From assembly GCA_030549335.1 (NCBI GenBank), contig CM060187.1, positions 8,618,001 through 8,682,000 of the forward strand: 64,000 nt of DNA, read 5' to 3'. Below the pieces are notes generated by a model. That model searched no databases, was not told where the DNA came from, and saw only the letters and a list, made by a program, of their open reading frames with translations. The first letter of the stretch is position 1, and each line of letters starts with the position of its first letter. Both the position numbers and the translations under genes were made by a program. This DNA is from Pontederia crassipes. Lineage: Eukaryota > Streptophyta > Magnoliopsida > Commelinales > Pontederiaceae. Below are positions 6,778 to 52,270 of this stretch, piece after piece.

Positions 6778-7344
6778 TAAATGTAACGCCCCCAAATCGA
6801 CACCCGCCACGTGGCGAAGATCAACTTGGAGACGCTACGTCATGCTATAACTTGACCATAATATTGACTATATCTCAGTCAAGAACTGAGACACGTCAGC
6901 GGAAGAAAAGAAATAAAGATAAATTATAACTTTAATTGCGGAAGTCTAAAAGTGACTATGTCATTACTAAGAAATAAACTGAGTTCTACATCATGAATTT
7001 AAATTGCGGAAGGTAAATGAAAACTAAATAACACTCTAAAAGCCCTATGGTTCATGTGCTGTCCTATCGCCAGAGCCTCATCACCACACGCCTACTCCAC
7101 CACGTTACTGACCTGGTCCTGTGGAAATCAGACACAGGGGAGGAGGTCATCCCGTAAGCTTTACAGCCTAGTGGGGAACCACATGATATACAATGCATAA
7201 CATGAATATAATAATCAGCGATAATTAATCAGGCTTAACTTGAACATGAAAGATAACATATAAGTATCATAGATCATAATAAGGATAAGATCAGCGATAT
7301 CATGAATCATGAGGATCAATAGTACATAGTAAACTTGGAATCAT

Positions 7345-7402
7345 GAAATACTTGACTTGACTTGAACTTAAACTTGAACTTGAACTTGAACTTGAACATG
7401 CT
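7345..7402. repeat. CTTGAA hexamer repeat
   Basis: Eight or so copies of CTTGA(A/C) in a row. The other two LTRs of this family have only two or three, so the tract has expanded here. Confidence 0.8.
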
Positions 7403-7461
7403 TGTCGATCTTGGTTATTAATTAACAATCAGGGTGACTTTGAGGTGCCTTTAATTCTTGG

Positions 7462-7572
7462 GGTGTGCCCAGCAAACGATACGGCCTTGTGCGGGTCAAT
7501 GGGTGATCAAACCATGACCAAGGGAGCGACCCTTATCTTGATGCACTTGGCTTGGACTGGCAACCCATCATT
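7462..7572 (-). promoter_or_regulatory. Conserved GC-rich block in Tekay LTRs, possible RNA hairpin
   Basis: This block is nearly identical in all three Tekay LTRs (also about 17728-17832 and 24500-24604), although sequence on either side varies. It contains AAGGGAGCGACCCTT, able to form a 5-bp stem with a 5-base loop, and a competing CCAAG/CTTGG pairing. It lies in the transcribed U5 part of the LTR. Role unknown. Confidence 0.4.
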
Positions 7573-7774
7573 AATCTTTCATCTGAACTTATTAATCACT
7601 TTTATTATCTTGTCATTCTTTGTATCATGTGATGAAGGAGATATGATCGGTATGAGATAAATCAAGACAAAGAGTTCATGTTGGAATTATAAGGAAATCA
7701 ATAATATTCATATAAAAATAAAGAGAGGTTAATAGGTGAATTTTGCTGGATTTTATGCCCAAAGAATCTCCTCC

Positions 7775-8650
7775 TCCTTACGGCCGTAAAACCCTAATTC
7801 TTTAGATTTTACGCCCGAGAGTCCTTTCATTTTTCGGCCGTAAAAATTTAACCTTTGTTACGTTACGGCCGTAAAAACCCTATTTTCTTTTCTACTTCGG
7901 CGGTAATAATTCAACTCTTATTTCGTTACGGCCATCACCTGTTACGCTCATCCGTTACGGCCTATTTCGTTACGCCCATCCGTTACGGCCTATCCTGTTA
8001 CGGCCGAAATCTAACTCTTCGGCCGTAACAACCTATTTCCCTTATCTCTCTCTTCTTTTCTCTCTCTTCTTTTCTCTCTATTCTTTTTACGGCCGAAATT
8101 ATATTCTCTCTCAACTTCTCGGTCGTAAAACTCATCTCCATTATTTTTTTTTTCTCCTTTACGGCCGAAATCCTCTACCTCTTTACGGCCAAACCATTTT
8201 TACGGCCAAACATTTTCTTCTCTCTCTTCTTTTACGGCTGAAACTCTATTCTCTCTATTCCTTTTACGGCCAAACTTCTCTTCTCTCTCTTCTTTTACGG
8301 CCGAAACTCTATTCTCTCTCTATTCCTTTTACGGCCGAAATTCTTTTCTCTCTCTTCTTTTACGGCCGAAACTCTATTCTCTCTATTCCTTTTACGGCCG
8401 AACTTCTCTTCTCTCTCTTCTTTTACGGCCGAAACTCTATTCTCTCTCTATTCCTTTTACGGCCGAAATTCTCTTCTCTCTCTTCTTTTACGGCCGAAAC
8501 TCTATTCTCTCTATTCCTTTTTCGGCCGAAATTCTCTTCTCTCTCTTCTTTTACGGCCGAAACTCTATTCTCTCTATTCCTTTTTCGGCCGAAATTCTCT
8601 TCTCTCTATCCCTTTTCTCGACCGTAAGAAAATTACGGCCAACAATTTTT
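7775..8650 (-). repeat. CGGCCG motif array in Tekay LTR
   Basis: About 30 copies of TTACGGCCGAAA and variants, many embedded in a 31-34 bp unit with CTCTATTCTCTCTATTCC. The unit length is close to three helical turns. Variants ACGGCCAAA and ACGGCTGAA fit CpG decay. The array sits where the other two LTRs of this family carry GGTCGACCGG copies. Relative to the TATA box it lies in the transcribed R-U5 part. Confidence 0.9.
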
Positions 8651-9092
8651 ACGGCTGTAATACTTCTACTTTTAAAAATTAAATTGCGTTATAAGACCGA
8701 AAATGAAATCCCCTCTAAATCTTACACCCTAACAATCAATAATACAGAAATATAACAAACAAAAATAACTATGCATGCTACAATCAACCAATCAAAGAAT
8801 TCAAGAAATCAAACAATTAAAAACAATAACTTGAATCATATTCATATTCTTTTCATAACGATTCGGGCATGAATTGAGATAATTCAGAGGCCATGCAAGG
8901 TGATTTCGATTTCACCCACCTTTGTTCGCGATTGATTCGTTCCTCGGTTCATCGAAAAATCGATCAATGGCTCCCTCCCCTGACTCTCCCTTGTTTTTCC
9001 CTCTGTTCTTCGCCTCTGGACGTTTGCAAAGTGGCCGCACGAAATCAAGACCAACAAAAGGCTTTCGTGGGGGTTAGGAGGGTGAGGTGTTC

Positions 9093-17071: not shown

Positions 17072-18065
17072 TGTAACGCCCCCAAATCGACCCCCGCCGT
17101 GTGGCGAAGACCAACCTGGAGACGTACGCCATGCTATGACTTTGACCATGATATTGACCATATCTCAGTCAAGAACCGAGACACGTCAGCGGAAAATAAT
17201 AAAATAAAAGAAAATAACATGAATATGCGGAAGTCTAAAAAGTGGCTACATCATTGCTAAGAAATAAAATAAGTTCTACATCATAGTCTAAAATGCGGAA
17301 GGTAAATGAAAACTAATAAACACTCTAAAAGCCCCGTGGTTCATGTGTTGTCCTATCGCTAGAGCTTCAACACCACACGCGTACTCCTACGTCACTGACC
17401 TGGTCCTGTGGAAATCAGACACAGGGGAGGAGGTCCTCCCATAAGCTTTACAGCCTAGTAGGGAACCACATAATATACAATGTATAACATGAATATAATA
17501 ATCATGCTTGACTTGAACGTGAAACATAACATGTTAGTATCATGGATCATAATAAGAATAAGATTAACGATATCATGAATCAGGAGGGTAACATGATGAT
17601 TAATAAACATGAACTTATAACATACTTGTAATTCATGACAGTAACTTGACTTGACTTGAACATGCTTCTTGGTCTTGATTATTAATTAACAATCAGGGTG
17701 ACTTTGAGTGCCTTTAATTCTTTGGGTATGCCCAGCAAATGATACGGCCTTGTGCGGGTCAATGGATGATCAAACCATGACCAAGGGAGCGACCCTTATC
17801 TTGATGCACTTGGCTTGGACTGGCAACCCATAGTTAATCTTTCATCTGAACTTATTAATCGCTTTTACAACATGTGGCTCTTTGTTCTTGATTCAATAGA
17901 TACAATAGGATCAATGAGAAATAAATCAATAAGAGAGTAGATCACGTAAATCAGTGAGGGAACTCTGTGGGGTCAGACAACAGGATCAATTATATACATA
18001 TGAAAATAATATCTGGATAGAAGAAAAATAATTAATAAATATAACCCAAGGTTTTCTAGGAAATT

Positions 18066-18325
18066 GGTCGACCGGTTCAGGGGAACGGTCGACCGGTTGC
18101 TTGTGGGTCGGTCGACCGGTCTACTCAGATCGGTCGACCGGTTGGTTGAATCTGGCTAATCGGGTCGGTTGATCCGTTCAGTTGAACGATCAACCGATGG
18201 GTGAGGATCGGTCGACCGGTGATAGGGATCGGTCAACCGATCGACATGTGCAGAAAGCGACTGCACGCAAGTTATCGGTCGATCAGTTGCCGCAATGCAT
18301 ATGGGCCGGTCGTCCGGTCGGTGTC
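18066..18325 (-). repeat. GGTCGACCGG motif array in Tekay LTR
   Basis: Four exact GGTCGACCGG copies start at 18066, 18087, 18110 and 18132 (steps of 21, 23 and 22 bp, about two helical turns). At least six further variants follow (GGTTGATCCG, GATCAACCG, GGTCGACCGG, GGTCAACCGATCG, GGTCGATCAG, GGTCGTCCGG). The core GGTCGACC is palindromic. CG to CA/TG changes explain most variants. The array occupies the position held by the CGGCCG array in the related LTR at 6782-9260. Confidence 0.9.
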
Positions 18326-18884
18326 CAGAAAGTTGCAGAACTTTCGGATTTCAACAATTATCCAATGCATTTTCCACCTAAACTACTTCCTACCACCTAA
18401 CAAATCAATCAAACAACAATAGAACAACAAAAAATGAATTATGCATGCAATTTATCAATCAATCAATCAATTCAAGAAATCAAACAATTAAAATGATAAC
18501 TTGAACCCTATCTTTAATCTTTTCTGTTCATAACGATTAGGGCATGAATTGGGACAATTCAGAGGTCATGCAAGGTGATTTCGATTCACCCAACTCGGCT
18601 CGCGGTTAATTCGTCCTTCGGTTTGTCGAAAAACAATCAATCACGCCCCCCTTGTTTCCGACGCTTCCTGTCCCCTATTCTTTTTCTCTGTCTGCAAAGT
18701 GCAGAGGCAATGTAAGGAGAAGCAAATAGATTTGATTAGGAGAAGAGAGAGAGTCTGCCAATCCTAGCGCCAAGAACGACGCGTTCCTGCTTCTGCTCAC
18801 GCACGAGAGGGGACGAAGAACCAAAACAGGGGAAGGGAGGTTGTGAGGTTTGAGGGAGAGTGTTTAATGAATCATGTTTTATCT

Positions 18885-18895
18885 TATATATATAT
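18885..18895 (-). promoter_or_regulatory. LTR TATA box
   Basis: TATATATATAA on the minus strand, about 155 bp from the outer LTR end; the counterpart in the 5' LTR is at 25606-25616. Confidence 0.55.
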
Positions 18896-19051
18896 CCCTC
18901 CCCTAAATAAATCTGACGAGATCAGATTTCTTTCCTCTCAAACTTTGAGTGGGAGTTGAACTCTTTTTATCCTTGTTTTTTTTGTGCTCTGCCAGGCACC
19001 CTTACAATTTCTTCTTCTTTTTTTTTATCTTTTTTTTCTTTGGTTGTTACA

Positions 19052-19070
19052 TTCTTACCCCCCTTAAAAG
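19052..19070 (-). other. Polypurine tract
   Basis: Minus strand CTTTTAAGGGGGGTAAGAA abuts the 3' LTR and lies just after the stop of the chromodomain frame. Confidence 0.9.
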
Positions 19071-19093
19071 AAAATTCGTCCTCAAATTTTGTA

Positions 19094-19780
19094 CTAAGTA
19101 GAGGGCTTACCGAAAAGGTGAGGGAATTCTTGACGCATTTCTGACTCAAGCTCCCAAGTTACATCATCGCCATGATGGTGACGCCAAGCTACCCTGACCA
19201 TGGGAACATCCTTGTTCTTCTGACGTTGTACTTTGCGATCTACTATGTGCATTGGATACTCAGCGAAGGTCAAGTTTGCAGCGATATCTGGCTCCTCTAT
19301 CCTTAGAACATTTGCAGCATCATGCTTGTACTTCTTGAGCATGGACACATGAAACACGTTATGCACTCTCCCATAAGATGGGGGTAGAGCCAGTCTGCAT
19401 GCTGCCTCGCCTACCAGCTCGAGTATCTCGAAGGGGCCTACATAGTGAGGACTAAGCTTTCCTCGCTTGCTGAATCTCATGACTCCTTTCATAGGGGATA
19501 CTTTCAGAAGAACTTGATCACCAGCTTGGAAGATCTGCACTCGTCTGCCTTTATCTGCATAACTCTTTTGCCTTCCTTGAGCAGTCTTCATCCTTTGTTT
19601 AATCAATTCTATCTTTTCAGCATACTCTACTGCTTCCTTAACTTCTTCCTTACTCAGGATTTTTTTCTCGCCTACTTCACTCCAGTGGGCAGGTGAACGG
19701 CAAGGTCGTCCATACAGGGCCTCAAAGGGTGCCATAACGATACTAGAATGGTAGCTGTTGTTATAAGCGAACTCAATCAT
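19094..19780 (-). pseudogene. Integrase C-terminal part and chromodomain
   Basis: Open frame of 228 codons, continuing the integrase after an in-frame stop. Residues 1-30 ([22 protein letters not shown]) are the end of the catalytic core. The GPF/Y-type module follows around residue 110 ([15 protein letters not shown]), then [13 protein letters not shown] chromodomain occupies about the last 55 residues, with [13 protein letters not shown] and [10 protein letters not shown]. In chromoviruses this domain guides integration toward marked chromatin. The stop lies about 20 bp before the PPT, as usual for the family. Confidence 0.9.
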
Positions 19781-19795
19781 ATGAATGTGCTCATC

Positions 19796-20413
19796 CTAGC
19801 TACCCTGCCAATCCAGTGCACAAGCCCTCAACATGTCCTCTAATGTCTGGATGGTCCTCTTAGACTGCCCATCTGTCTGAGGGTGGAAAGCTGTGCTGAA
19901 ATTGAGCCTCGTGCCAAAGGCTTCCTGCATGCTCCTCCAAAATCTGGCAGTGAATCTGGGGTCTCGGTCAGACACTATAGATGCTGGAATATCATGAAGT
20001 CTGACAACTTCTCTCACATACAAATCCAACACGCTCTCCACTGACTGTTTCCATCTGATGGGGATAAAATGTGCAGCCTTAGTGAAACGATCCACGACTA
20101 CCCATATGGCATCATGACCCTTCTTAGTCCTAGGCAAGTTGGATACAAAGTCCATAGTGATTTTATCCCACTTCCATTGTGGAATTTCCAAAGACTTCAA
20201 CTTGCCATATGGTTGCTGATGCTCAATCTTGACTTGTTGGCACACCAGGCATCGAGATACATATTCTGCTCTCTCTCTTTTCATGTCCGGCCACCAGTAG
20301 ATGCGTTGTACATCCTTATACATCTTGGTGCTACCGGGGTGGATAGAGAACTCCGACTTGTGGCACTCGTCCAGTACCTCTCGTCGGACATTAGCGTCGG
20401 TGGGAATCCACAA
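19796..20413 (-). pseudogene. Integrase core, catalytic Glu changed to Lys
   Basis: Zinc-binding HHCC module at the N-terminal side (HKSEFSIH ... CLVCQQVK), then the DDE core: first Asp in ITMDFV, second Asp in IVSDRDPRF. The third residue, normally Glu in a QSERT context, is Lys (codon 19859-19861), consistent with a GAG to AAG change. The frame ends at a TAG (19796-19798) where the family has Trp in DWQGSWDEH. Integrase from this copy would be inactive on both counts. Confidence 0.92.
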
Positions 20414-20563
20414 CCTGTCTCGATATCTAATCCCTCCATCTGCAGATATCTGAAAATTCGCTGGTTCATTCTGGCACCTCTTCAGAACCTTCTAATATTC
20501 TGGATCTACTTTTTGAGCTACTATGATCCTGTCAATTAAGCTGGGCTTCATCTGATGCATCAT
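20414..20563 (-). pseudogene. RNase H-integrase linker with two stops
   Basis: The frame of the flanking domains continues through here (LIDRIIVAQ, VLKRCQNEPANF) but is cut by TGA at 20564-20566 and TAG at 20492-20494; the latter falls where a Gln codon is expected. Confidence 0.75.
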
Positions 20564-21202
20564 TCATAAAGCTCCATTTGTACCCAGCTTGGGACACCAT
20601 TGCTCAATTTCTTCCAGCATCTCGTACTCACGTTGTCTCATATAAGCTAGCGAGCCTTCCCACTTCATGCTTAATGCATCGGCGACTGAATTTGCTTTAC
20701 CCGGATGGTAATTGATAGCAAATTCATAATCCTTGAGAAACTCAAGCCATCGTCGTTGCCTCATGTTAAGATCCCTCTGATCGAAGATGTACTTGAGACT
20801 CTTGTGGTTAGTGAAGATCTCGAACGTCTCTCCGAACAAATAATGCCTCCAGATCTTCAAGACAAAGACCACTGCCGCCAATTCTAAGTCATGGGTGGGG
20901 TAATTGACCTCATGCTTCTTCAGCTGCCGAGAAGCATAGGTCACTACCTTGCCGTGTTGCATCAGTACACATCCCAATCCGGTTCCACATGCATCACTGT
21001 AGACCACAAAACCTCCACAGAATCGGTCCGAAGTCAGACGGTCCTTCAGTGTCTGAAAGCTTTGCTCACATTTATCTGTCCAGATAAATTTTTCCGCCTT
21101 CTTTGTGAGATTCGTGAGGGGTGCAACAATCTTGGAAAAGTCCCTGATAAACCTCCTGTAATAACCCGCTAGACCTAAGGAAGCTGTGAATCTCAGAAGC
21201 AT
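20564..21202 (-). pseudogene. RNase H domain
   Basis: Begins with the tail of the RT connection ([14 protein letters not shown]) in a shifted frame. RNase H signatures follow: [15 protein letters not shown] with the first Asp, [10 protein letters not shown] with Glu, FTNHKSLKY where Asp is usual (FTDHKSL), and NSVADALS with the last Asp. The Asp to Asn change would affect activity. The stretch before GGFVVYSDA is shorter than usual, pointing to a small deletion near 21010. Confidence 0.85.
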
Positions 21203-21707: not shown

Positions 21708-21708
21708 C

Positions 21709-22502: not shown

Positions 22503-22522
22503 AACGGGATTTGCACCTCCTG

Positions 22523-23638: not shown

Positions 23639-23710
23639 GCTTATCCTCTATTCATACAACAAAATCATGCATCAATAATCCATAACTTATCTTAAACATA
23701 AACTTGACTT

Positions 23711-23819
23711 ACATTGCTTTTCGGTGGAGGGTGTGGCGACTGCTCGGTGATAGCACATGAACCTTTTTACCATACTATACTATTCTATACACTAGGACAT
23801 CAAGAGAGTCCTGACTTTA
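23711..23819 (-). other. Leader between PBS and gag
   Basis: Matches 6672-6764 of the older relic, including GGTGGAGGGTGTGGCGACTG; contains no gene. Confidence 0.7.
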
Positions 23820-23832: not shown

Positions 23833-23836
23833 TAAA

Positions 23837-25769
23837 TGTAACGCCCCCAAATCGACCCCCGCTACGTGGCGAAGACCAACCTGGAGACACTACGACATGC
23901 TATGACTTTGACCATGATGTTGACCATATCTCAGTCAAGAATCGAGACACGTCAGCGGAAAATAATAAAATAAAAGAAAATAATATGAATACGCGAAAGT
24001 CTAAAAAGTGGCTACATCATTGCTAAGAAATAAAATAAGTTCTACATCATGAATCTAAAATGCGGAAGGTAAATGAAAACACTCTAAAAGCCCTATGATT
24101 CATGTGTTGTCCTATCGCTAGAGCTTCATCACCACATGCCTACTCCACCACGTCACTGGCCTGATCTTGTGAAAATTAGACACCGGGGAGGAGGTCCTCC
24201 CGTAAGCTTTACAGCTTAGTGGGGAACCACATAATATACAATGTATAACATGAATATAATAATCAATAGTAAATAATCATGCTTGACTTGAACGTGAAAG
24301 ATAACATGTCAGTATCATGGATCATAATAAGAATAAGATCAACGATATCATGAATCAGGAGGGTAACATGATGATTAATAAACATGAACTTATAACATAC
24401 TTGTAATTCATGACAGTAACTTGACTTGACTTGAACATGCTTCTTAATCTTGGTTATTAATTAACAATCAGGGTGACTTTGAGTGCCTTTAATTCTTGGG
24501 GTATGCCCAGCAAACGATACGGCCTTGTGCGGGTCAATGGATGATCAAACCATGACCAAGGGAGCGACCCTTATCTTGATGCACTTGGCTTGGACTGGCA
24601 ACCCATAGTTAATCTTTCATCTGAACTTATTAATCGCTTTTACAACATGTGGCTCTTTGTTCTTGATTCAATAGATACGATAGGATCAATGAGAAATAAA
24701 TCAATAAGAGAATAGATCATGTAAATCAGTGAGGGAACTCTGTGGGGTCAGACAACAGGATCAATTATATATATATGAAAATAATATATGGATAGAAGGA
24801 AAATAATTAATAAATATAACCCAAGGTTTTCTAGGGAATCGGTCGACCGGTTGGTTGAATCCGGTTAATCGGGTCGGTTGATCCGTTCAGTTGAACGATC
24901 AACCGATGGGTGAGGAACGGTCGACCGGTGATAGGGATCGGTCAACCGATCGACATGTGCAGAAAGCGGTTGCACGCAAGTTATCGGTCGACCGGTTGCC
25001 GCAATGCATACGGGCCGGTCGATCGGTCGGTGTCCAGAAAGTTGCAGAACTTTTGGATTTCATCAATTATCCAATGCAATTTCCACCTAAACTACTTCCT
25101 ACCACCTAACAAATCAATCAAACAATAATAGAACAACAGAAAATGAATTATGCATGCAATTTATCAATCAATCAATCAATTCAAGAAATCAAATAATTAA
25201 AATGATAACTTGAACCCTATCTTTAATCTTTTCTGTTCATAACGATTAGGGCATGAATTGGGACAATTCAAAGGTCATGTAAGGTGATTTCGATTCACCC
25301 ACCTCGGCTCGCGGTTAATTCGTCCTTCGGTTTGTCGGAAAATAATCAATCACGCCCTCCTTGTTTCCTACGCTTCATGTCCCCTGTTCTCTTTCTCTGT
25401 CTGCAAAGTGCAGAGGCAATGTAAGGAGAAGCAAATAGATTTGATTAGGAGAAGAGAGAGAGTCTGCCAATCCTAGCGCCAAGAACGACGTGTTCCTGCT
25501 TCTGCTCACGCACGAGAGGGGACGAAGAACCAAAACAGGGGAAGGGAGGTTGTGAGGTTTGAGGGAGATGGAGAGGGAGAGGGTTTAATGAATCATGTTT
25601 TATCTTATATATATATCCCTCCCCTAAATAAATCTGACGAGATCAGATTTCTTTCCTCTCAAACTTTGAGTGGGAGTTGAACTCTTTTTATCCTTTTTTT
25701 TTTGTGCTCTGCCAGGCGCCCTTATGATTTCTTCTTCTTTTTTTATCTTTTTTTTCTTTGGTTGTTACA
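23837..25769 (-). repeat. 5' LTR (1933 bp) of the Tekay element
   Basis: TGTAAC...GTTACA, followed by the TSD. Compared with the 3' LTR it has one instead of four leading GGTCGACCGG copies (24841 onward) and a few small indels. Confidence 0.95.
24839..25035 (-). repeat. GGTCGACCGG motif array, short version
   Basis: About seven motif copies or variants; lacks the three-copy block found at 18066-18131. Confidence 0.88.
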
Positions 25770-28897: not shown

Positions 28898-30072
28898 TAT
28901 AGGATCCCAAAGGGCACCAAGAGGGGGTGAATTGGTGTCTATCAAAAATATCAATTTCACAAAAACCATTGCAGAAGCAGAAAACCGATTCAATAATTCT
29001 TTTAAATCAAAGCATTTCAGATAATAAACATAATATGAGAGGGAGTGAGAGAGAGAGAAAATCAAATACAAACACACAGTGGTTGTTGACGAGGTTCGGC
29101 CACACCTTAGCCTCCGTCCCCGCTCTGACTTCTCGACCTCGAGACCACCGGAGATTCCACTAAGCACTTTCTTTATTCCAAATGGGGCAAGGAAGAAGCC
29201 CTTTACATCAACCACATTTTCTCCGCTTCGAGAGGCAAGACAACCTCTCCTCCTATGAAGCTAATCTTTTCTCTCGCTCAAGAGGTAAGATTTGGAACCT
29301 CTTTTACACAAGAGCTCTCACAATCTTTCTGAAAAATAGTTTCTCTCTTTTACAATAGAACACTCACATGAAGAGAAGAGAGAAAGAAAGAAACCTCTCA
29401 ATGATAACTTCAAGAGAAATTATCTTGTTTTGATTTCTTGAAATTTTGCTTCAATGCTTGGATGGATGCCATTGCTTCTGGCTTTGACACTCCTTTTATA
29501 GGCTCTATTATGTGGAAAATTCGTCCACAATTTATTCCACATTTTTCTCCTTGAAATATAGCCGTTACTGTTCATTTGAGTAATGGACCGGTCAACCGCA
29601 TTAATGGATCGCTCGATCGGTCTATATTATCGTTGTGCCATTTTCTCAGCTTTAGCACTTGGTCGATCGATCGGACTGTCAACCGGTATTGTCTTGGCAT
29701 CAATCGGTTTGGGATCGATCGATCGGCATCTTCATTTGGTCTACCGGTATTGTCGATCGGCCTTCTTTTTGTCGATCGGCAGGTTGACCGACCTGCACTC
29801 TTTTGAGCATAACTTTTTGCACAATTATCCAAATTAGATAATCTTGGATTCTATGGATAGCTAAAAAGATTATCTACAATTTGATATTAATGTGTCATTG
29901 AGAATCTAATAAGGTCAGTGTCAATTATTTAATCAAAGTCTAGTGCATAAAGTTATCTCTTTTTCTTCAAATTTTTTTAAGAATTTTAAATTTAATCATT
30001 TGAGGTTTGTATCATCAAAATATAATTTTATATGTCATTAAAACTTAGATCCAATAGAATCAAATTTCAACA
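28898..30072 (-). repeat. 3' LTR (about 1175 bp) of a minus-strand SIRE-like copia
   Basis: On the minus strand it starts TGTTGA and runs through TAAAATTATATTTTGATGA, as do the copia LTRs at 34852 and 38309, and ends in CACCCCCTCTTGGTGCCCTTT before GGATCCTATA (usual end GGATCCTACA; the terminal base pair has changed). A TATAAAAG box lies at 29493-29500. GGTCGACC-type motifs cluster at 29578-29810. The pol end to the right shows it is a 3' LTR. Confidence 0.82.
29578..29810 (-). repeat. GGTCGACC-type motif array in copia LTR
   Basis: About ten motifs such as CCGGTCAACCG, GGTCGATCGATCGG, CAACCGGTA, GATCGATCGATCGG and GGTTGACCGACC within 230 bp, upstream of the TATA box (U3). Confidence 0.85.
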
Positions 30073-34851: not shown

Positions 34852-36099
34852 TGTCGGAGCAAAGTTTTAATGCCATATAAAATTATATTTTGATGATACA
34901 AACCTCGAAAGATTAAAGATAAATGCTGAAAAAGTTTAAGTAAAAATGAATAACTTTATGCACTAATGTTGATTAAATAATTGACTATGATATTATTAGA
35001 TTCTGGATGAATGATAAATATTAAAGTTATAGAGAATCATGTTAGCTATGCATAGAATCCAAGATTATCTATTTTGGATAACTGTGCAAAAGATTATAAT
35101 CAAAATAGTGCAAGTCGGTCAACCAGTAGATCGAAGCAAAGAAGGCCGGTCGAGACAATACTAGTCGAAAGAATGGAGATGACGGTCGACCGATCAAAAC
35201 TGAGCCTGACCCGGTTGACGCAGAGATAATACCGGTCGACTAATCAGTTGATGGTCCCGTCGATCGATCAAGCGCAAAAGCTGAAGAAATGAGCGCAGCA
35301 GTCATATAGACAGGTCGACCAGTCCATTAATGCGGTCAACCAGTCCCTTGGTCAAATGAATAATAACGGCCAATTTTGAAGGAGAAATTTGTGAAATAAT
35401 TTTTGAATGAATTTTTCACATACTAGAGCCTATAAAAGAAGTGCCAAAGCCAAAAACAAAGGCATCCATCCACTCATTGAAAAATTTGTGGAACAATTTC
35501 TTGATGAATTTTCCACATACTAGAGCCTATAGAAGGAGTGTCAAAGCTAGAAACAAAGACATCCATCCACTCATTGAAGAAAAACTTCAAGTTATCAAAA
35601 GAAGACATTTTCCTTGAAGTTTTCATTTTATAGTTTTGTCTTCTTTCTCTCTTCTCTTCTTGTGAGCATAGAATTGTAAAAGAGAAACATTTTTGTTCAA
35701 AAAAACTAAGAAAGCTCTTGTGTAAAAGAGGTTCGAAATCTTGCCTCTTGAGCAAGAGAAAAGATTAACTTCTTTGGAGGAGAGGTGTGTCTTACCTCTT
35801 GAAGCGGAGAAAAGGGGGTGGTGTAAAGGGTTTTTCTTCCTTGTCCCATTTGGTATAAAGGAAGAGTTCTAGTGAAATTTCCGACGGTCTCAAGGTCGAA
35901 AAGTTGGAGCGGGGACGTGGGTCGAAGTGTGGCCGAACCTCGTCACCAACTACCACGTGCATTGTAATTGATTTGATTTGTGATGATTTAAAGATTATTG
36001 AATCGGTTTTATGTTTCCGCGATGATTTTTGTGAAATCGATACTTTTTAAAACATCAATTCACCCCCTCCCCCCTCTTGGTGCCCTTGGGGATCCTACA
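34852..36099 (+). repeat. 5' LTR (1248 bp) of the gag-only copia
   Basis: TGTCGGAGC...GGATCCTACA. GGTCGACC-type motifs at 35105-35350, TATAAAAG box near 35432, then the leader that ends in CACCCCC...TCTTGGTGCCC. Confidence 0.92.
35105..35350 (+). repeat. GGTCGACC-type motif array in copia U3
   Basis: About ten copies (GGTCAACCAG, CCGGTCGAG, CGGTCGACCGATC, CCGGTTGACG, CCGGTCGACTAATC, GTCGATCGATC, AGGTCGACCAG, GGTCAACCAG) with unrelated spacers. Confidence 0.88.
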
Positions 36100-36100
36100 A

Positions 36101-38308: not shown

Positions 38309-39467
38309 TGTTGGAGCAAAGTTTTAACGTCATATAAAATTATATTTTGATAATACAAACCTTGAAAGATTAAAGATAAATGCCAAAAATGTTTAAGTAA
38401 AAAATAGAAAACTTTATTCACTAACTTTGATTAAATAATTGACTATGATTTTATTAGATTATGTAATGATAATATCAAAGTTGTAGAGAATCATGTTATC
38501 TATCCATAGAATCCAAGATTATCTAATTTGGATAACTGTGCAAAAACTTATGCTGGTTGGTCAACCTGTCGGTCGAAGCAAAGAAGGCCGGTCGACACAA
38601 TACCGGTCGTCCGAATGAAGATGCCGGTCGACCGATCAAAACTGAGCCTGCCCCGGTTGACATCGAGACAATACTGGTTGATGATCCAGACGACCGATCA
38701 AGCGTTGAAGCTTAAGAAATGGGCGCAACGGTCATATAGACCAGTCGACCGGTCCATTAATGTAGTTGACCGGTCCCCTAGTCAAGTGGATAGTAACGAT
38801 CAATTTTGAAGGAAAAATTTGTGGAAAAATTTCTTGATGAATATTCCACATACCAGAGCCTATAGAAGGAGTGTCAAAGCTAGAAACAAAGGCATCCATC
38901 CACTCATTGAAGAAAAACTTCAAGTTATCAAAAAAGACATTTTCCTTGAAGTTTTCATTTTATAGTTTTCCCTTCTTTCTCTCTTCTCTTCTTGTGAGCA
39001 TAGAATTGTAAAAGAGAAACATTTTGGTTCAGAAAAATTGAGAGAGCTCTTGTGTAAAAGAGGTTCGAAATATTGCCTCTTGAGCGAGAGAAAAGATTAG
39101 CTTCTTTGGAGGAGAGGTGTGTCTTACCTCTCGAAGCGGAGAAAAGGCAGTGGTGTAAGGGGCTTTTCTTCCTTGCTTCATTTGGAACAAAAAAAGAGCT
39201 CTAGTGGAATCTCCGGCAGTCTCGCATTCGAGAAGTCGGAGCGGGGACGTAGGCCAAGGTGTGATCGAACCTCGTCAACAACCACCATGTGCATTGTGAT
39301 TGAATTCTCTCTCTCTCCCTCTCATATTGTGTGATATGATTTGATTTGTGATGATTTAAAGATTTTTGAATTAGTTTTATGTTTTCGTGAAGATTTTCGT
39401 GAAATTGATACTTTTATTTTAAACACCAATTCACACCCCCCCTCTTGGTGCCCCTTGGGATCCTACA
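38309..39467 (+). repeat. 3' LTR (1159 bp) of the gag-only copia
   Basis: TGTTGGAGC...GGATCCTACA; same order as the 5' LTR, shorter by about 90 bp, with its own GGTCGACC-type array at 38553-38785. Confidence 0.92.
38553..38785 (+). repeat. GGTCGACC-type motif array in copia U3
   Basis: About ten motifs; one is CCAGTCGACCGGTCC and one GTAGTTGACCGGTCC. It differs at several sites from the array of the 5' LTR. Confidence 0.88.
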
Positions 39468-40445
39468 AAAAGAATATAAAACCTCTATTACATAACTAAT
39501 AAACTATAAGAACCAGGTAAAAGAGCATCCAACCATATAATAAAAGAATAATTTGCAGCCTTCAGAACCTCCGAACGATTGTGCAGCCCAATCGATGAGT
39601 TGTTGAACGATCTTTCTCCTTCGGGTGATCTTCAGGCTTCAAAACTTCTTCTCTGCAATAAGTTATGAATTCCCAGGTCTCAAGTACCCAAACACCACCA
39701 AGCGCATGTTTTTCTATCTCCTAGGGCAAGGGTTTCGATAAAGTTTTCGTTCAATTGAGAGTCTTTTTATTTCAAAATAATAAAAATTTGAAAGACTTTG
39801 ATCGGACTTTGAAATCATCAAAAACTTCTTCAAATCTAAGTAAATATGTTTTCCAATGATCCCTGAGACTTAGGTTAAAGTTTGGAATTGATCTGCAATT
39901 AAAATCCCCAAGAAAAGTAGAAGAAATCTCAAAATCAACCTTCATAATGCCCCATGAGAGCTCTTTAACAGTCCGTAATATGGTTTTCACGGCCCGTAAC
40001 ACTGATTTCATAGTCCTTACAGTATTCAAATCGGAGTAAAGTTGTCTGCCCGAGTAATGGCTGGTAAGATAGCTTTCACGGCCCATTACTTGGGCAGATT
40101 TCTAACATGAAAAATGCATTTTAACGGTCGATCAAGTGGTTTCATGACCCTGTTTCATGGCCCATTATGATTCCATTATTGCCCGTTATATTCATTTCAA
40201 CCTTGACAGCCTCAACTAATTTTCACTTTCTGGCTCCGTTTGAACTTCGATTTGAGCATGGTTTTCTCCAATGGCTTCGTAATTCAATTTTCTTCCTTTT
40301 TCTACAGTAAAACTTAAAATTTGTGTAGATTTTAATGTTTATAAAATTAAAGAAAATAAGACCAAGAATTGATTCATGCTATATGAAAATGAATCAAAAT
40401 GTGATTAAATGCATGATAATTATATGTTGTATTTTGCATGCATCA

Positions 40446-41505: not shown

Positions 41506-42492
41506 TGTTGAATCCCATGTTTTGATGATAACAAATTAAATTGGACATAAAAGTTATTAATCTATGCTCAAGTGATGTTAATACATGTGTAGGATTGATA
41601 TGACCTCATTCGCAGATGAAATCGCCAAATTAAAATGATAAAAACAAAATTTCACCACATGATCGGTCGACCCACCGGTCGATTGGCCATGGAGATCGGT
41701 CGATCGATAACAGCGGTAGAAATGGCGAGACAATACCAGTCGACGTTGAGATGTATCGGTCGACATCGAGACATTACCGGTCGATGTATCGATCAAAGGA
41801 CCGATTGACTGGACAACGTCAAATCGCAGAAATGCAACAACGGTCATATTGAGCGGTCGACCGGCCCATCACAGCGATCGACTATCCACATAGTCAAATG
41901 AACAATAATGGCTATTATTTTGAGGAGAAAATTGTAGAAGACTTTTTGAACGAATTTTCACCTATAGAAGCCTATACAAGGAGTGCCAAAGCTGAAGAAA
42001 AATCATCCAAGCAAGTAAGAACATCCTAGAGCTCATTTCAAGTTCTGCAGCCCAAAGTTGCAATTTCTTTCCTTTTCTTTTCTAAGTTTTGAGTGTGAGA
42101 AAAATTTTGTAAAAGAAGAGAATTAGAGGGATCATTTCTTTCTGATCTAGTGAGATTGAGAGCACATTATAAAAGAGGTGTGCCTTGCCTCTTGAATGAA
42201 GAAGAAAGTGTGTGGTGTAAAGAGGGTTATTCTCTCCCTACAAGAAAAGAGAAAGATAGTGCATCTCCGGTGGTCTCGAGGTCGAGAAGACGGAGTAGGG
42301 ACATAGGCCAAAGAGTTCAGGCCGAACCTCGTCAACATATCGTGTCTCTCAGTGTTTGTTCTTTATCTTTCACTTACGCCTTATCATTATTTGCTTGTGA
42401 TCGATTTTATTGATTTTTCGAAAGTGATTTTGTGAAAAGATTTTTATACACCAATTCACCCCTTCCCTGCTCTTGGTGCTTTTGATCCTACA
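41506..42492 (+). repeat. 5' LTR (987 bp) of the SIRE-like copia
   Basis: TGTTGAATCC...GATCCTACA. Related in structure but not close in sequence to the LTRs at 34852 and 38309. A TATA-like CCTATACAAGG lies near 41971. Confidence 0.85.
41660..41885 (+). repeat. GGTCGACC-type motif array in SIRE-like U3
   Basis: About twelve motifs, including CGGTCGACC, CCGGTCGATTGG, GGTCGATCGATA, CAGTCGACG, ATCGGTCGACATC, ACCGGTCGATG and GCGGTCGACCGGCC. Confidence 0.88.
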
Positions 42493-44399: not shown

Positions 44400-45661
44400 A
44401 AGTGGTTCCAAGATAAAAATATCAGTTCCCACGAAATAAAATGAATCATTAACATCTGACTGTCATACATTGTAAGAGTCATATCCAAGCAAATAACTCA
44501 GCCCATCAAAGGAATCATGCCAGTCCCCGCTACAACTCAAGACATCACCAAAATATTTACGCAAATTATTGCTATAAATAAAAACATCACCAAAGAAAAT
44601 AATGCCATATCTTCTATGACAAACATAGAGCCAACTAATGCACATGCTAATGATTTTTTAAAATGACATGGAAGACTATAACAATCATCATAATAAATGA
44701 TTTTAGTTGAGCACAAGGTTTGATTTAAGGAAATGAATAATATTTTAGGCTCATAAAAAAATATTGAAATTATAATCAACCAATCAAAAGTGTTCAGTTC
44801 TAGAAAATATTCATTACAAAATTTCAACATATAGCTCAAATAAAGTGTTTCAACATTCAATGAAGAACAAAGTGGAATAGAAAATTCAGATTTAATGTTT
44901 GCATGCCATTCAATTCTTTTCTCAATTAAAACCTCAGACACATCCAGCAAATATAAACTTTGAAAAGTAAGAACTAGACTTTTCAAACTAGTTGTCATAA
45001 ACTCAATACATCTTTCAAATCCTTGCAAGAAGGAATTTATAACTTCATGTACTCCACTCAAATAATCATGTAAATGATTACTATAAATCAAAATACCTCC
45101 TAAGAAAATAATCACAAATCTTATGTGGAAAACACACAAAAGTTCAATTGATGTCAATTTCTCATTTGTAATGTAAAAATCATATGACCAACAGCAATAA
45201 TTATCTGAAGAAATGTTCTTAGTAAGACACAAGGGTTAGTTCAAGGAAATGAATAAGATTATACCCTTATCAAAAAATCTGAAAATCAATATAAGCCAAT
45301 CAAAGATGCTCAATATTACAAAATATTCATTCCAGAAATTCAATGTAAAGCATAAATAAAATGAACCATCACCCAACAAATATGAAAATGAAAAGGACGG
45401 ATGGCATTGAACACCTCTCTCAATTAAACCTTGCAAACTAGTCACATCAAACAAATATAAAGTTTCAAAGCAAGGAGATGGACCTTTCAAACATCCTGTC
45501 ATACACTCACTACAACCTCTTTTAGATCCTTGAATGATAGGAATTATAACTTCATGTAATTCATCTCCTACATATCTGCAAGGAAAAATTAGAATCAAAA
45601 GATAAAAGATGGTTAGTGTTAGGAGAAAAATTACTGAACTTTCTTTCTTTTGCCTCAACAC
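44400..45661 (-). pseudogene. Coding-like tandem repeats of unknown protein
   Basis: On the minus strand 45661-44537 stays in one frame with a single stop (45236-45238). It contains two diverged units: HEVI...QG...C...M...LK......F..LYL.DV, then FWNEYFVILSIFDWLILI / FCNEYFLELNTFDWLIII, each ending ILFISLN. Between units lies RFVIIFLGGILIYSNHLHDYL, and a third, frame-shifted partial unit has YGIIFFGDVFIYSNNL. The F-x-x-x-ILIYS pattern resembles the RT motif around the catalytic Asp pair, here GG or GD. Whether this is a duplicated RT remnant or another protein is open. Confidence 0.45.
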
Positions 45662-46337
45662 TCAAGTTTTTTTGCTCATATCTCTCTAGAGGTGGCCTTT
45701 CTAAACACTCAAGATCTAATCTTCTCTTATTCTCACAACTCTCATAATATTCAGCATCTAAATGTTGCATCTCAATGCTTTTAGAAGGTGGTCTTTCTAA
45801 GCACTCAAAAGTTGTGTAGCTATCATTTTCATCACTCAAGTTGTTACACTCATATTTTTCATCTTTGTCTTTCTCACAACTTTTAGAATTGTTTGGAGTT
45901 GCTGTACAATCAGCTTCCTCTTTCTTCAAGTGATGTTGTGCAACCAAGTTTTTCCTCTCTATGTTGTAGGCTTCTACACGCCCTTTAAGTTGCACCTGCT
46001 CTTCGTATGCTTCTTGAGGTGGCAATGGTGCTAAAGTTTTTCTTTCATCTTTGTGACATTTATAATGGTTGGTAACACCATCACGTGTCACACATCGATC
46101 ATATTGCCATGGTTGCCCCAAAAAAATATGACAAGCATGCATTGATACAACATCAAATAATACTTCATCAGTAAATCTTCCAATTTTAAATGACACAAGC
46201 ACCTGTTTAGTCACTTTGACTTCTCCTTCATCGTTTATCCACTGAAGTTTGTATGGTTTTAGGTGCTTTAAGGTTTGGTAGTCCAAACTTCTCCACCATG
46301 CAATGGCTAGCAAGATTGACACCGCTTTCACTATCAA
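45561..46337 (-). pseudogene. Gypsy protease C-terminal part with tail
   Basis: PYKLQWINDEGEVKVTKQ, FDVVSMHACHIFLGQPW and YDRCVTRDGVTNHY are the second half of the aspartic protease of gypsy elements of this kind (LLGRPW-type motif: here FLGQPW). A charged tail follows with two ECLERPP boxes 40-50 residues apart. The reading frame joins the upstream protease half only through a frameshift near 46265. Confidence 0.8.
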
Positions 46338-46722
46338 TAATCAGTCCACAAGTTCTGTCCAAAATACAACAACACGCATAGAAAACATTTTCTCGTTCAT
46401 GTGTTCTCCCTCCAATCTGAACATGTCTATGCCTTCTCCAACTTATAATAGAGGCTTCAACATCTTCCTCTTCCATCTCTTCGTGTATATCATCATCAGG
46501 AGCTCGCTGTCTTTGACAATCTCTTCTTTGATTTGGTTGTATAACTTGTTGTAATTGTGTAATTTGCACATCTACCTGATCATGAAGTTCAGTAATCATA
46601 TGTTCAAGATGTTGAAAATGTTGTGCCATGACTTCTATCATTCTTCTTTGATCAATTGCTTCTTTTCTAGGATTATGTTCTTTGTCATTTCCTGTTGACA
46701 TTGTGATAAATTTCTGCAGCAA
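46228..46722 (-). pseudogene. Gag N-terminus fused to protease N-terminal half
   Basis: MSTGNDKEHN, QRRMIEVMAQHFQHLEHMI, a coiled-coil-like stretch, then an acidic region and ISWRRHRHV; directly after comes CGLIIDSESGVNLASHCMVEKFGLP, the protease start. The gag core and zinc knuckle are missing. The active site reads DSE where DSG is needed. Start chosen at the Met at about 46701, which has a family-type MSTGN start; an upstream Met is also in frame. Confidence 0.8.
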
Positions 46723-49090: not shown

Positions 49091-49129
49091 TCAATTTTGA
49101 AAAGACAAATGTTTGATACTAGATGAAAA

Positions 49130-50131
49130 CAATGGAGTTTACACATGGGCTTTAGGTACAATAATGTATACAAAATTGATTTTGATAACTTGAAAAATGA
49201 AAAATGTCTTAGTGCTATGCATAATGTCATAAACTTGTGACATAGAAGATAAGGACATGCAAACTATAAATTACTAAATAAACTTTGAAATCATGAATTA
49301 GTTAGAGGCTTGCACATATAGGTCAAATTTGAGAAAAACAATATCTGTGACTCATGTCTAAAAGGTAAACAAACCAGAAGTTCATTTAAATTAAAGGGAA
49401 TTATTAGTACATATAGGACTTTAGAACTTTTACATCTTGACTTATTTGGACCTATTGATGTGATAAACTTAGGAGGAAAAGATATGTATTTTTTATTGTT
49501 GATGATTTCTCTCATTCTACTTGAACTATTTTTCTTGCCAGTAAAGACGAAATGTTAAATATGTTTTCTAAATTTACAAAAAGAATTTAAAATAAATTTG
49601 AACAAAAGATTTCAAAAATTAGAAGTGACCATGGAGGAGAAAATGAAAATCATAAATTTGAGTTATTTGTGAAGAAAATAGAATTACTCATAATTTTTCC
49701 ACTCCAAGGACACCTCAACAAAATGGAATAGTAGAAAGAAAAAATAAGACTATACAAGAAATGGCTAAAAAAATTTTAAATGAAAGCAAATTACAAAAGT
49801 ATTTTTGGTTGGAAGCCCTAAACACGTCATGCTATGTTCATAATAGGATTTTACTTAGGCCTCTTGAGAACAAAATATGTTTTGAAGTGTTATATGATAA
49901 GAAACCAAATATCTCTTATTTCAAAGTTTTTTGTTGTAAATGCTATATTTTGAATGTCAAAGATAAACTAGGCAAATTTGATGACAAATGTGATGATAGT
50001 ATTTTTCTTGATTATTCTAGTACAAGTAAAGCGAATAGAGTGTTTAACAAAAGAACATTAGTTGTTGAAGAGTCTATTAATATTAAATTCAATGAAACTA
50101 ATGATTTTTTTTATGAGCAAGCAAGTACATG
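49130..50131 (+). pseudogene. Copia integrase
   Basis: Pre-integrase module with RRxGHANYKLL-type words near 49245 and CDSCLKGKQTRSSF (49350), then HLDLFGPI (first Asp, 49436), KIRSDHGGEN (second Asp, 49620) and NGIVERKN (Glu, 49725), all catalytic residues present in three frames. The C-terminal part is open at 49761-50132 (MAKKILNESKLQKYFWLEAL, CYVHNRILLRPL). Several stops and a short deletion near 49665 break it. Confidence 0.88.
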
Positions 50132-51197
50132 ATGATGATGAAGAAATAGTTAAAGTGCAAAGACAACTTAATGTTGTGGACATAGAGGAAGCAAAAGTTT
50201 ACACTCTAAAGGTGGAAGAAATGGAAGAATCTCAAAGAAAGAATAATCAAATCATCCCAAGAAATAGGAGACATGCCTCATCACACCCACTTATCAATAA
50301 CTAATATAAATGAAGGTATAGAAACTCTTTAAAAAAATCTATGTGCTTTTTTGGCTTTTCTTGCGAATTTTGAGCCCATCAATATAGATGAAGCACTTGA
50401 AGATTCAAATTGGATAAATTCAATGCGTGAGGAATTAAATAATTTTGAAAGAAATCAAGTGTGGAAACTTGTGGAAAGACCCAAGGACCATCCCATCATT
50501 GGAACCAAATGGGTCTTTCGAAATAAGTTAGATGAAAATGATGTCATTGTGAGGAACAAGGCTAGATTAGTGGCAAAGGGTTACAAATTGAAGGGATTTA
50601 TATTGAAGAAACTTTTGCACCTGTCACTATACTTGAGGCAATTCGAATGCTTTTCGCTTTTGCATGTAGGTTTTAAACTTTTTTCAAATGGATGTTAAAT
50701 CGGCCTTTTTATATGGTTTTATAAATGAGTAAGTTTATGTTGAACAACCTCAAGGTTTTGAAAATCCAAATTTCCCTCATCATGTTTTCAAACTTTCAAA
50801 AGCTCTTTATGGATTGAAGCAAGCTCCTCGAGCTTGGTACGAACGATTGAGTTCATTTTTATTAGAAAATAGTTTTCAAAAGGGAAAAGTTGACACTGCA
50901 CTATTTTTAAAATATTTTAAAAATGACATTTTAATAGTTCACATTTATGTTGATGATATTGTTTATGGTGCTACTAATGAATGCCTATGTAAAAAGTTTG
51001 AAATTCTTATTCAACAAGAATTTGAGATGAGTCTTGTAGGAGAGCTCACCTTTTTTCTAGGCCTACAAGTGAAACAATCAAGTGTGGCATCTTTCTCAAT
51101 CAATAAAAGTATACAAGAGAGTTGCTTAAAAGATTCGGAATGAATGAATACAAGCCGAGCACAACCCCTATGAGCACCACTACAAAATTGGACAAAT
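50132..51197 (+). pseudogene. Copia reverse transcriptase
   Basis: DEALEDSNWINSMREELNNF, NQVWKLVERP, IGTKWVFRNKLDE and NKARLVAKGY are classic copia RT starts (50380-50590). A frameshift near 50595 moves the frame. MDVKSAFLYGF (about 50688) carries the first Asp, LSKALYGLKQAPRAWYERL follows, and YVDDIVYGAT (50947) has the intact catalytic Asp pair. GELTFFLGLQV ends the domain. Confidence 0.92.
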
Positions 51198-51857
51198 ATG
51201 AAAAAGGCAAGTCCATTGATAAAAAAAAGGTATAGAGGCATGATTGGTAGCCTACTCTATTTAATGGCATCTAGACCAGATATAATGTTTAATGTATGCT
51301 TGTGTGCTAAGTTTCAATCCGCTCCCAAAGAATCACATTTAATTGTTGTTAAGAGGGTAATGCGCTATTTAAAGCATACATGTGAATTAGGTATTTGGTA
51401 TGATCGAAATTCTCCATTTGAATTACATACCTACACCGATGTGGATTTTTTCGGATGTAAAGCTTATAGGAAAAGCACTAGTGGGATGTGTTGCTTTCTT
51501 GTTAGGTCTCTCATTTCATGAGCTACCAAGAAACAAAACTTCATCCCACTTTTTACCGCCGAGGTCGAATATATAGTCGCCGGTAGTTGTTGTGCACAAA
51601 TATTATGGGTAAAATAATAATTGCTTGATTATGGAATGAATTGTTCCAATGTACCCATGAAGTGCGATAACACTAGTGCTATAGAAATGACCAAAAATCC
51701 AATTCAACACTCTAGGACTAAACACATTGACTTCTGATATCATTTCATTAGAGAGCATGTGATTCTTAAGGAATTACTATTGAACATATTTACAAAATTC
51801 TTGAGTGAGGAACGGTTTTGCATGCTTAGAAGGGAATTAGAAATGATCAAATATTGA
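51198..51857 (+). pseudogene. Copia RNase H and pol end
   Basis: RGMIGSLLYLMASRPDIMF, KRVMRYLKHTCELGIWY, YTDVDFFGCKAYRKSTSG (first Asp), FTAEVEYI (Glu), KCDNTSAIEMTKNPI (Asp) and RTKHIDF. Ends EERFCMLRRELEMIKY-stop. A few stops interrupt it (for example at 51520). Confidence 0.92.
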
Positions 51858-52270
51858 TTGCATATCAATTCTAAGTAAAAGTGACTTGGTTATGCAATAT
51901 CACTTTTGACATAAATTGAACATTAAAATCATTGCACAACACTTACATTTATGTGAAATAAATCCTTGGAACTAAATCTTAATGATTAAAATTTCAAAAA
52001 TTAGTGAAAAAATGGCTGTCAAACTAGGATCGGTCGACCGATATGATTCATCGATCGACCGATATATGGCTACGTCCGGCTGACATCCATCGACCGATGG
52101 ATTGTTTATTGCAAACAAATTATCTGATCGACCGCTAAATATATGGCTCCTTCCTTTCCGGCCGCTCTCTCCGTCTCCCTCTCGATTGCCCAGTCTCTGT
52201 CACTAGCGTTTGCTTCCTTCCAGCCCCTCTTCCGATCACCAAACCCCTTCCATTCCTTTCGGCCACCATT
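51858..52270 (+). promoter_or_regulatory. Spacer before the 3' ORF with GGTCGACCGAT motifs and TATA-like box
   Basis: Between 52029 and 52133 lie CGGTCGACCGATAT, ATCGATCGACCGATAT, CATCGACCGATGG and GATCGACCGC, the same motif family as in the LTR U3. They end shortly before TAAATATATGG (52135-52145) and a CT-rich stretch that leads into the ORF. A second, internal promoter for the 3' ORF is an inference. Confidence 0.5.

Follow-up and report, generated by a model that had tools for sequence, protein, structure and literature searches.

Arrays of one palindromic, CpG-rich box, GGTCGACC, are shared by the long terminal repeats (LTRs) of Sirevirus-type copia and Tekay/Del-type gypsy retrotransposons of Pontederia crassipes, and by a further unclassified family. 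The Sirevirus part of this observation has already been described (PMC2829016). New here are the findings that Tekay/Del-type gypsy LTRs and the further family also carry the box, that one Tekay LTR family has alternative GGTCGACC or CGGCCG cassettes, and that the step between GGTCGACC boxes is mostly 20-23 bp. No description of such boxes in gypsy LTRs was found in the open-licence literature searched. The window referred to below is the whole stretch of DNA analysed, 64,000 nucleotides of contig CM060187.1.

Enrichment of the boxes

Motif arrays were present at every position named in a preliminary description of this DNA, and all stood above dinucleotide shuffles. The window held 15 exact copies of GGTCGACC. 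With up to one mismatch allowed, 43 copies were counted, whereas 100 shuffles averaged 5.6 and never gave more than 12. For ACGGCCGA the corresponding count was 70 (shuffle mean 8.5, maximum 19). When each of the 10 arrays was shuffled separately (300 dinucleotide shuffles), the count with up to one mismatch exceeded that of every shuffle, the weakest enriched arrays being 29578-29810 and 52029-52133. Chance from base composition was ruled out as the origin of the arrays by the window and per-array shuffles. Motif density equal to the dinucleotide background, which the preliminary description had named as evidence against its claim, was not observed; the density was far higher. In the host genome, GGTCGACC pairs at distances of up to 38 bp numbered 11,995 versus 3 for the reversed control, and TTACGGCC pairs numbered 8,672/8,787 versus 4/10 for the control.

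The ratio of observed to expected CpG was 1.2-1.9 within the arrays and 0.62 across the window (1290 versus 2067 expected), which agrees with the earlier view of CpG-rich arrays inside CpG-poor DNA. The suggestion that the variants reflect CpG decay, with renewal of intact copies, was borne out modestly as regards decay: 15 of the 20 single-mismatch sites were transitions, 7 of those at the central CpG. Several of these sites were common by descent, and the case for renewal was weak and did not support that part of the suggestion. The G box of GGTCGACC type is longer than this, roughly ATCGGTCGACCGAT; TTACGGCCGAA is a better form of the second motif, which is oriented and not a full palindrome. 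A third box, CACGGCCGTG, was also seen, and locus L024 carried a fourth palindrome-like box.

Tekay/Del-type gypsy LTRs

17072..19051, minus strand: LTR of a Tekay/Del-type gypsy chromovirus, its ends read from the sequence; GGTCGACC array at 18066-18325 with 5 exact boxes
23837..25769, minus strand: the other LTR of this element, with a GGTCGACC array (24839-25035) of 3 exact boxes
6782..8978, minus strand: Tekay-type LTR with a TTACGGCC/CGGCCG cassette (7775-8650) replacing GGTCGACC between homologous flanks

An alignment of the two LTRs of the element at 17072-25769 over 1901 sites showed 73 differences (3.8%). Between them, gag, RT, RNaseH and integrase exceeded their Pfam cut-offs in gypsy domain order, and a weak chromodomain (E 0.00038, under its Pfam cut-off) was found; this combination fits a Tekay/Del chromovirus. 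The LTR end, GGGGGCGTTACA, has GGG at -8 to -10, as in U5 att type A.

The cassette at 7775-8650 contained 17 copies of CGGCCG and none of GGTCGACC. Its flanks (6782-7604 and 8720-8968) showed 86% and 79-80% identity, respectively, to both GGTCGACC Tekay LTRs, and the two motif classes thus occur within one LTR family, between homologous flanks; one copy mixes both. The preliminary description had presented this array as belonging to another Tekay LTR, and had missed that one LTR family holds both motif classes; the homologous flanks show that the LTR is not unrelated to those with GGTCGACC. An ORF across the array (7875-8627) was rejected as a real gene, as it had no Pfam match and follows from the repeat.

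Sirevirus-type LTRs and other arrays

34852..36099, plus strand: copia LTR of Sirevirus type, with a GGTCGACC array (35105-35350), a TATA-like CTATAAAAG (35431) and the junction CA/ATTGG/TATCGGAGC
38309..39468, plus strand: related LTR sequence of Sirevirus type with an array at 38553-38785; 5 boxes with at most one mismatch
28900..30054, minus strand: related LTR sequence of Sirevirus type, oppositely oriented, with its array at 29578-29810 and a TATA-like site at 29500
41660..41885, plus strand: GGTCGACC array of a more distant Sirevirus-type LTR relative; flank matches of 67-77%, 4 boxes with at most one mismatch
52029..52133, plus strand: small array of GGTCGACC boxes, with copia integrase/RT fragments (49662-51140) on its 5' side and ORF 52139-52606 after it; 1 exact box, 3 in total
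230..765, plus strand: TTACGGCC array of an unclassified element; 11 exact TTACGGCC, counted in region 150-800
2190..2675, plus strand: second TTACGGCC array of the same unclassified region; 6 exact boxes, followed by CTATAAATA at 2700

In the LTR at 34852-36099, 15 of the 16 letters of the junction CAATTGGTATCGGAGC fitted the Sirevirus pattern CA-ATTGG-TATCAGAGC of PMC2829016. The C-rich CACCCCCTCCCCCCTCTTGG ended about 19 bp before 36099, as expected of the Sirevirus integrase signal (about 21 bp), and the array lay 253-498 bp into the 1248-bp LTR and before CTATAAAAG, which is the location of RM boxes (upper half, upstream of the TATA box). By these LTR features it is classed as Sirevirus-type, with no intact pol linked to the LTR. 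The sequence at 38309..39468 was about 82-84% identical to 34852-36100, and the array at 29578-29810 had no exact GGTCGACC and four copies with one mismatch.

ORF 52139-52606, 3' of the copia pol fragments, had neither a Pfam match nor a protein match. For the region 150-2750, labelled Athila/Tat-type in the preliminary description, no Pfam match was obtained with the one ORF scanned, and no tblastn match with the window's own pol ORFs as queries. Besides the Tekay- and Sirevirus-type LTRs, the GGTCGACC box was found in the further unclassified family, where, on the plus strand, TATATAAG precedes the array by about 460 bp, so that this array may be downstream of the promoter.

Spacing of the boxes and position of TATA-like sites

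Among the pairs listed, which were the first places on contig 1 at loci chosen by exact box pairs, 41 of 50 GGTCGACC pairs were at 20-23 bp; when similar spacers were collapsed, this step was seen in 29 of 38 distinct spacers. With the locus-selecting exact pairs excluded and one mismatch allowed, 19 of 29 neighbours were at 19-24 bp (7 of 11 in the window arrays alone). In a control of 23 viral contigs (IMG/VR pattern matches with 2-3 CGGTCGACCG copies each, 53-74% G+C), 3 of 24 spacings were at 20-23 bp. The TTACGGCC pairs did not have this step and were mostly 28-38 bp apart among the matches listed. Larger gaps of 44-50 bp were common; these are not whole helical turns, and they rule out general helical phasing over longer distances. 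The preferred step could also stem from a tandem-repeat origin.

A TATA-like site followed the array by 25-81 bp in five of the nine arrays examined; by the pattern used, three had no such site, and one had a site about 280 bp off. Those found close to the Tekay arrays are AT-rich and could have arisen by chance.

Spacer homology between families

None of the 15 pairs formed by a Tekay and a Sirevirus-type array showed spacer homology (z from -1.3 to 1.2), and the same test detected 11 of 14 within-family pairs at z of at least 3.3. As the remaining 3 were undetected, old homology could escape the test. An unexplained exception was a pair between Tekay and the further family, Tek18-L059, with z 4.5. 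Tek18 and L058 are known relatives.

On the basis of this test, a recent movement of whole segments between the Tekay and the Sirevirus-type LTRs was rejected. The earlier claim that unrelated families have these arrays in common is supported for the same box in Tekay- and Sirevirus-type LTRs, with no detectable spacer homology between the two; spacers aligning across families, which would have contradicted it, were not seen in this comparison. Its wider form, that spacers are not homologous between families, is supported for these two types, with Tek18-L059 as the exception noted above.

Interpretation of the arrays

The most parsimonious reading of arrays that combine sharing between families, enrichment, a preferred step, undetectable spacer homology and alternative cassettes is a binding factor common to the families. 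With moderate confidence, the arrays are interpreted as clustered putative protein-binding sites, most likely read by one or more dimeric host factors, with the box reached convergently and the cassettes exchanged. They would be RM-type sites in LTR regulatory regions; of the nine arrays examined, five have a TATA-like sequence no more than 100 bp downstream. The CGG...CCG half-sites would be recognised by a host protein that binds DNA as a dimer, or by a few related proteins of this kind; LOB-domain proteins may be candidates for this role. A distance of 20-23 bp between GGTCGACC boxes is close to two helix turns, so neighbouring dimers could bind one face of the DNA and cooperate. Because each box has several CpGs, binding would probably be methylation-sensitive, and an occupied array might act as an enhancer promoting transcription, with the methylated array staying silent. 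Unrelated families may have arrived at the same box by convergent accumulation, and within one family the cassettes may turn over or be exchanged, perhaps via template switching in reverse transcription.

To our knowledge, no reader protein of the RM boxes is known, and RM boxes have been regarded as a feature of Sireviruses. Now that a common box with a narrow step is seen in gypsy LTRs, and one LTR family is seen to carry alternative boxes, the question of the reader protein becomes testable. Clusters of shared palindromic words, located in control regions of unrelated retrotransposons or close to them, suggest that different genomic parasites may rely on one kind of DNA-binding factor. If it is true that the unrelated elements of each plant species share its box, competing parasites would rely on one host control point. 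A bolder version, which we regard as unlikely, is that a single host factor family, or the anti-silencing factor of one element exploited by others, decides which copia and gypsy elements are transcribed; this would account for the common CGG-CCG boxes, and the cassettes would swap as the factor or the silencing changes, with unrelated elements in step.

It is rather improbable that the arrays are bound by an element-encoded or shared methylation-removing protein, VANC-like, that unrelated families exploit. Dense short-motif arrays in non-coding DNA that differ between related elements are indeed found in VANDALs, according to the accessible text of PMC5735166, and the arrays are CpG-rich in CpG-poor surroundings. 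However, VANC targets are family-specific and the boxes here are common to families, and the window ORFs scanned against Pfam gave standard retrotransposon domains or none, with no candidate motif-binding protein.

Less probable still is that an array segment passed once from one family to another, through recombination or a nested insertion, and that its spacers later diverged past recognition. The alternation of cassettes within the Tekay LTR family, the Tek18-L059 pair and the three undetected within-family pairs are consistent with such an event, but all 15 Tekay x Sirevirus-type pairs were without spacer homology, and after an old event selection would still have been required for the boxes to persist while the spacers decayed. 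There is a slim chance that adjacent palindromes fold the transcript into hairpins feeding small RNAs, an idea put forward for maize Sireviruses, whose palindromes attract small RNAs according to the text accessible in PMC10760457 and PMC5311732. Folding of the Tekay G array was much stronger than that of its shuffles (z -8.0), but the other three arrays folded were weak (z -2.8, -0.8 and -2.4), so RNA hairpins were rejected as a common feature of the arrays; folding also requires neither a common box in unrelated families nor a 20-23 bp step. The least probable explanation is a neutral minisatellite, the boxes being functionless leftovers of short-repeat slippage: the stretch 8198-8607 is partly a true tandem repeat and cassette length differs among copies of the Tekay LTR family, but most arrays have unrelated internal spacers with the box alone kept, and the box is found again in unrelated families as well as in an independent report on Vitis (PMC2829016).

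Comparison with known systems

The binding-site arrays proposed here resemble those of VANDAL VANC proteins (Hosaka et al. 2017, PMC5735166, accessible part) in having a dense short motif in non-coding DNA that changes fast between relatives. The VANDAL motif, YAGTATTAY, belongs to a DNA transposon with an element-encoded binder, whereas here CpG boxes are common to copia and gypsy elements. Retand elements (PMC11963269), which are plant gypsy elements, likewise have arrays of repeats in non-coding DNA, between pol and the 3' LTR; unlike the boxes here, these are true tandem repeats described as family-specific, and the available portion of that paper yielded no description of a shared CpG box. 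Variable CpG islands in Del/Tekay LTRs, and a eudicot Del group without a CpG island, were described by Cruz et al. 2014 (PMC4029996), in whose accessible text no palindrome was found named for these islands.

Maize Sirevirus LTRs (Bousios et al. 2016, via the accessible text of PMC10760457 and PMC5311732) likewise carry palindrome clusters in the LTR cis-region. Their palindrome, CACCGGAC...GTCCGGTG, differs from the present box and recurs in maize Helitrons; it has been read via secondary structure and small RNAs, whereas strong folding was seen here in one of four arrays. There is also a close likeness to the RM boxes of Bousios et al. 2010 (PMC2829016). As far as the accessible text goes, these are CGG-CCG palindromes, in at least 8 copies in the upper half of Sirevirus LTRs, that form CpG islands upstream of the TATA box; additional copies precede the envelope gene, and the boxes are reportedly absent from the other Ty1/copia elements compared. 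No discussion of box spacing was found in that text, and the 20-23 bp step is a feature added to its description. The Vitis Sirevirus RM consensus, CGGTCGACCG, is the core of the present box, but the box is not confined to Sireviruses: arrays of it also occur in Tekay-type gypsy chromovirus LTRs and in a further family, and one LTR family carries alternative boxes.

Enrichment and shape of the boxes

The preliminary description had claimed arrays of short palindromic motifs, and these are real: each of the ten arrays, shuffled alone and with at most one mismatch allowed, exceeded all 300 shuffles, and counts in the window and the genome were far over controls. The whole window holds 15 exact copies of the first box, GGTCGACC; with up to one mismatch there were 43, against a mean of 5.6 and a highest value of 12 in 100 shuffles. 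The second-box word ACGGCCGA occurred 70 times (shuffle mean 8.5, highest 19). In the 1.13-Gb host genome, exact GGTCGACC pairs with no more than 30 bp between them numbered 11,995, compared with 3 for a reversed-pattern control, and pairs of a further second-box word, TTACGGCC, numbered 8,672 on one strand and 8,787 on the other, compared with 4 and 10; among the matches listed, all pair positions were on contig 1. The first box lengthened to approximately ATCGGTCGACCGAT in a stack of 34 sites, and the second, from 53 sites, was TTACGGCCGAA, which is oriented and incomplete as a palindrome.

When the window was scanned for 8-mers of any kind that cluster within 600 bp, TTACGGCC-type words ranked at the top and GGTCGACC-type words at about 26 to 30, behind AG-rich tandem-repeat words and a few others. 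The scan also recovered clusters of AT-rich words from the LTRs of a young Athila-like element, so short-word arrays extend beyond the CpG boxes. This element (53205-63487, pol ORF 56362-59703) has LTRs 2.0% apart, with AT-rich repeats and without CpG boxes.

Elements carrying the boxes

The first box was assigned to the following elements.

17072-25769, minus strand: chromovirus with gag, RT, RNaseH and integrase, the chromodomain being under its Pfam cut-off
34852-36099: Sirevirus-type LTR with a Sirevirus junction (15/16 letters), C-rich signal and TATA-like box
28900-30054, 38309-39468 and region 41660-41885: relatives of the 34852-36099 LTR by sequence matches
52029-52133: small array 3' of fragments of copia integrase and RT, ahead of an ORF
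Loci L058 and L027, outside the window: Tekay-type LTRs
Locus L025, outside the window: Sirevirus-type LTR
Loci L026, L059 and L060, outside the window: one further family, its arrays without a match in the window

The LTRs of the 17072-25769 chromovirus diverge by 3.8%, and the LTR end matches Del U5 att type A. No retrotransposon domain turned up in nine ORFs close to L059 and L060. The element at 150-2750, with second-box arrays, is likewise unclassified. On these assignments GGTCGACC is common to two unrelated families, Tekay-type and Sirevirus-type, and to a third, unclassified one, which upholds the sharing proposed earlier.

Other features were recorded nearby. A few kilobases from the L059 array, a DUF716 ORF (L064:1266-2213; contig 1, ~1562266-1563213) is probably a host gene. 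At 30332-32667, plus strand, the decayed RT, RNaseH, integrase and chromodomain of a chromovirus lie between Sirevirus-type LTR copies, which suggests nested insertions. ORFs of 232 and 259 aa in a repeated region at 44540-46340, minus strand, had no Pfam match.

Spacer homology

Spacers were compared by z per array pair, with the boxes neutralised and the spacers shuffled. Within families, 11 of 14 pairs were detected (z 3.3 to 43); the undetected three were all Sirevirus-type (S38-S41, 1.5; S38-L025, -1.2; S29-L025, -0.2). All 15 Tekay by Sirevirus-type pairs lacked a homology signal (z -1.3 to 1.2), in agreement with the claim that spacers are not homologous between families, and three TTACGGCC array pairs gave -0.7 to 1.0. 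The exception lies outside that set: among six Tekay by further-family pairs, only that of L059 with the 17072-19051 LTR array was high (z 4.5), without explanation, the other five giving -0.5 to 0.4. The S35-L059 pair gave 2.0.

Box spacing

Among the matches listed, on contig 1, first-box centres were 20-23 bp apart in 41 of 50 pairs; with similar spacers collapsed this was 29 of 38, compared with about 5 expected if distances were spread uniformly over 8-38 bp. Allowing one mismatch and neighbour gaps of up to 38 bp, 28 of 39 gaps in ten arrays were 19-24 bp (Tekay 8/11, Sirevirus-type 5/8, the 52029 array 1/1, further family 14/19); L026 (7/8) was excluded as a relative of L060. The proportion was 19/29 after removal of the exact pairs used to choose outside loci, and 7/11 for arrays of the window only. 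Control viral contigs picked with a similar pattern had 3/24 gaps at 20-23 bp. Larger gaps were often 44-50 bp, which are not whole turns. In L059, L060 and L026, GGTCGACC pairs 20-22 bp apart often alternate with gaps of ~44-50 bp, a step of ~67 bp.

Pairs of TTACGGCC were mostly 28-38 bp apart among the matches listed; four second-box neighbours in one window array (280, 301, 322, 343) were 21 bp apart. Gaps of a third box, GCACGGCCGTGC, in L027 (22, 43, 21, 83, 22 and 115) are only suggestive of the narrow step.

Alternative cassettes in one Tekay LTR family

The 6782-8978 LTR carries CGGCCG boxes and shares homologous flanks with the GGTCGACC Tekay LTRs. Two CGGCCG copies hold 17 and 15 CGGCCG per cassette and no GGTCGACC; the L058, 17072 and 23837 cassettes hold 3 to 7 GGTCGACC and no CGGCCG; that of L027 holds both, interleaved (2 plus 6). 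In a left-flank tree of six copies both CGGCCG copies join L027 (support 0.985), away from the other three, and in the right-flank tree L027 is far from all others. Homologous flanks with different cassettes indicate that box identity can change inside one LTR family.

The L027 cassette (1380-1740; contig 1, ~1197100-1197460) also combines GCACGGCCGTGC with GGTCGACC, with several 21-22 bp gaps. An unclassified element (L024:1331-1655) has two GGTCGACC amid several copies of a different near-palindrome, CTC[A/G]GC[C/T]CG[A/G]G or CCCGGCCCGGG.

Possible function

Within LTR regulatory regions, the arrays are probably sites where a dimeric factor binds. CpG content, narrow spacing, convergence and, in five of the nine arrays, a TATA-like site 25-81 bp downstream favour this reading of the sequence. 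Against it, the pattern used picked up no TATA-like site in three of nine arrays and placed it ~280 bp off in another, and the further family has TATATAAG ~460 bp before the array. We infer the factor itself, methylation sensitivity and a route of cassette exchange. CpG decay of box variants, also proposed earlier, is compatible with the data, but they argue for it weakly. RNA folding relative to shuffles was strong for the Tekay first-box array alone (z -8.0), three others giving -2.8, -0.8 and -2.4.

Comparison with known systems

The observation is confirmed, and part of it was known before. In the accessible text of Bousios 2010 (PMC2829016), CGG-CCG boxes are described for Sireviruses, with CGGTCGACCG as a Vitis form, and reported missing from the classic Ty1/copia elements compared; extra boxes are reported to precede the envelope gene. 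The ORF that follows the 52029-52133 array has no Pfam or protein match. Del LTRs have variable CpG islands, the eudicot group being without one, and no palindrome is named there in the searched text (Cruz 2014, PMC4029996). No report of boxes in gypsy LTRs was found in the open-licence literature searched, most subscription papers lying outside it. In maize, according to the text available, one palindrome is common to Sireviruses and Helitrons, being the most frequent motif in structured regions of the latter (PMC10760457, PMC5311732), a precedent for one box in different element types. The most interesting parts are the cross-superfamily sharing, the 20-23 bp step and the box change within one LTR family; relative to the Sirevirus boxes as described in the accessible text of Bousios 2010, GGTCGACC is here also found in Tekay-type gypsy LTRs.
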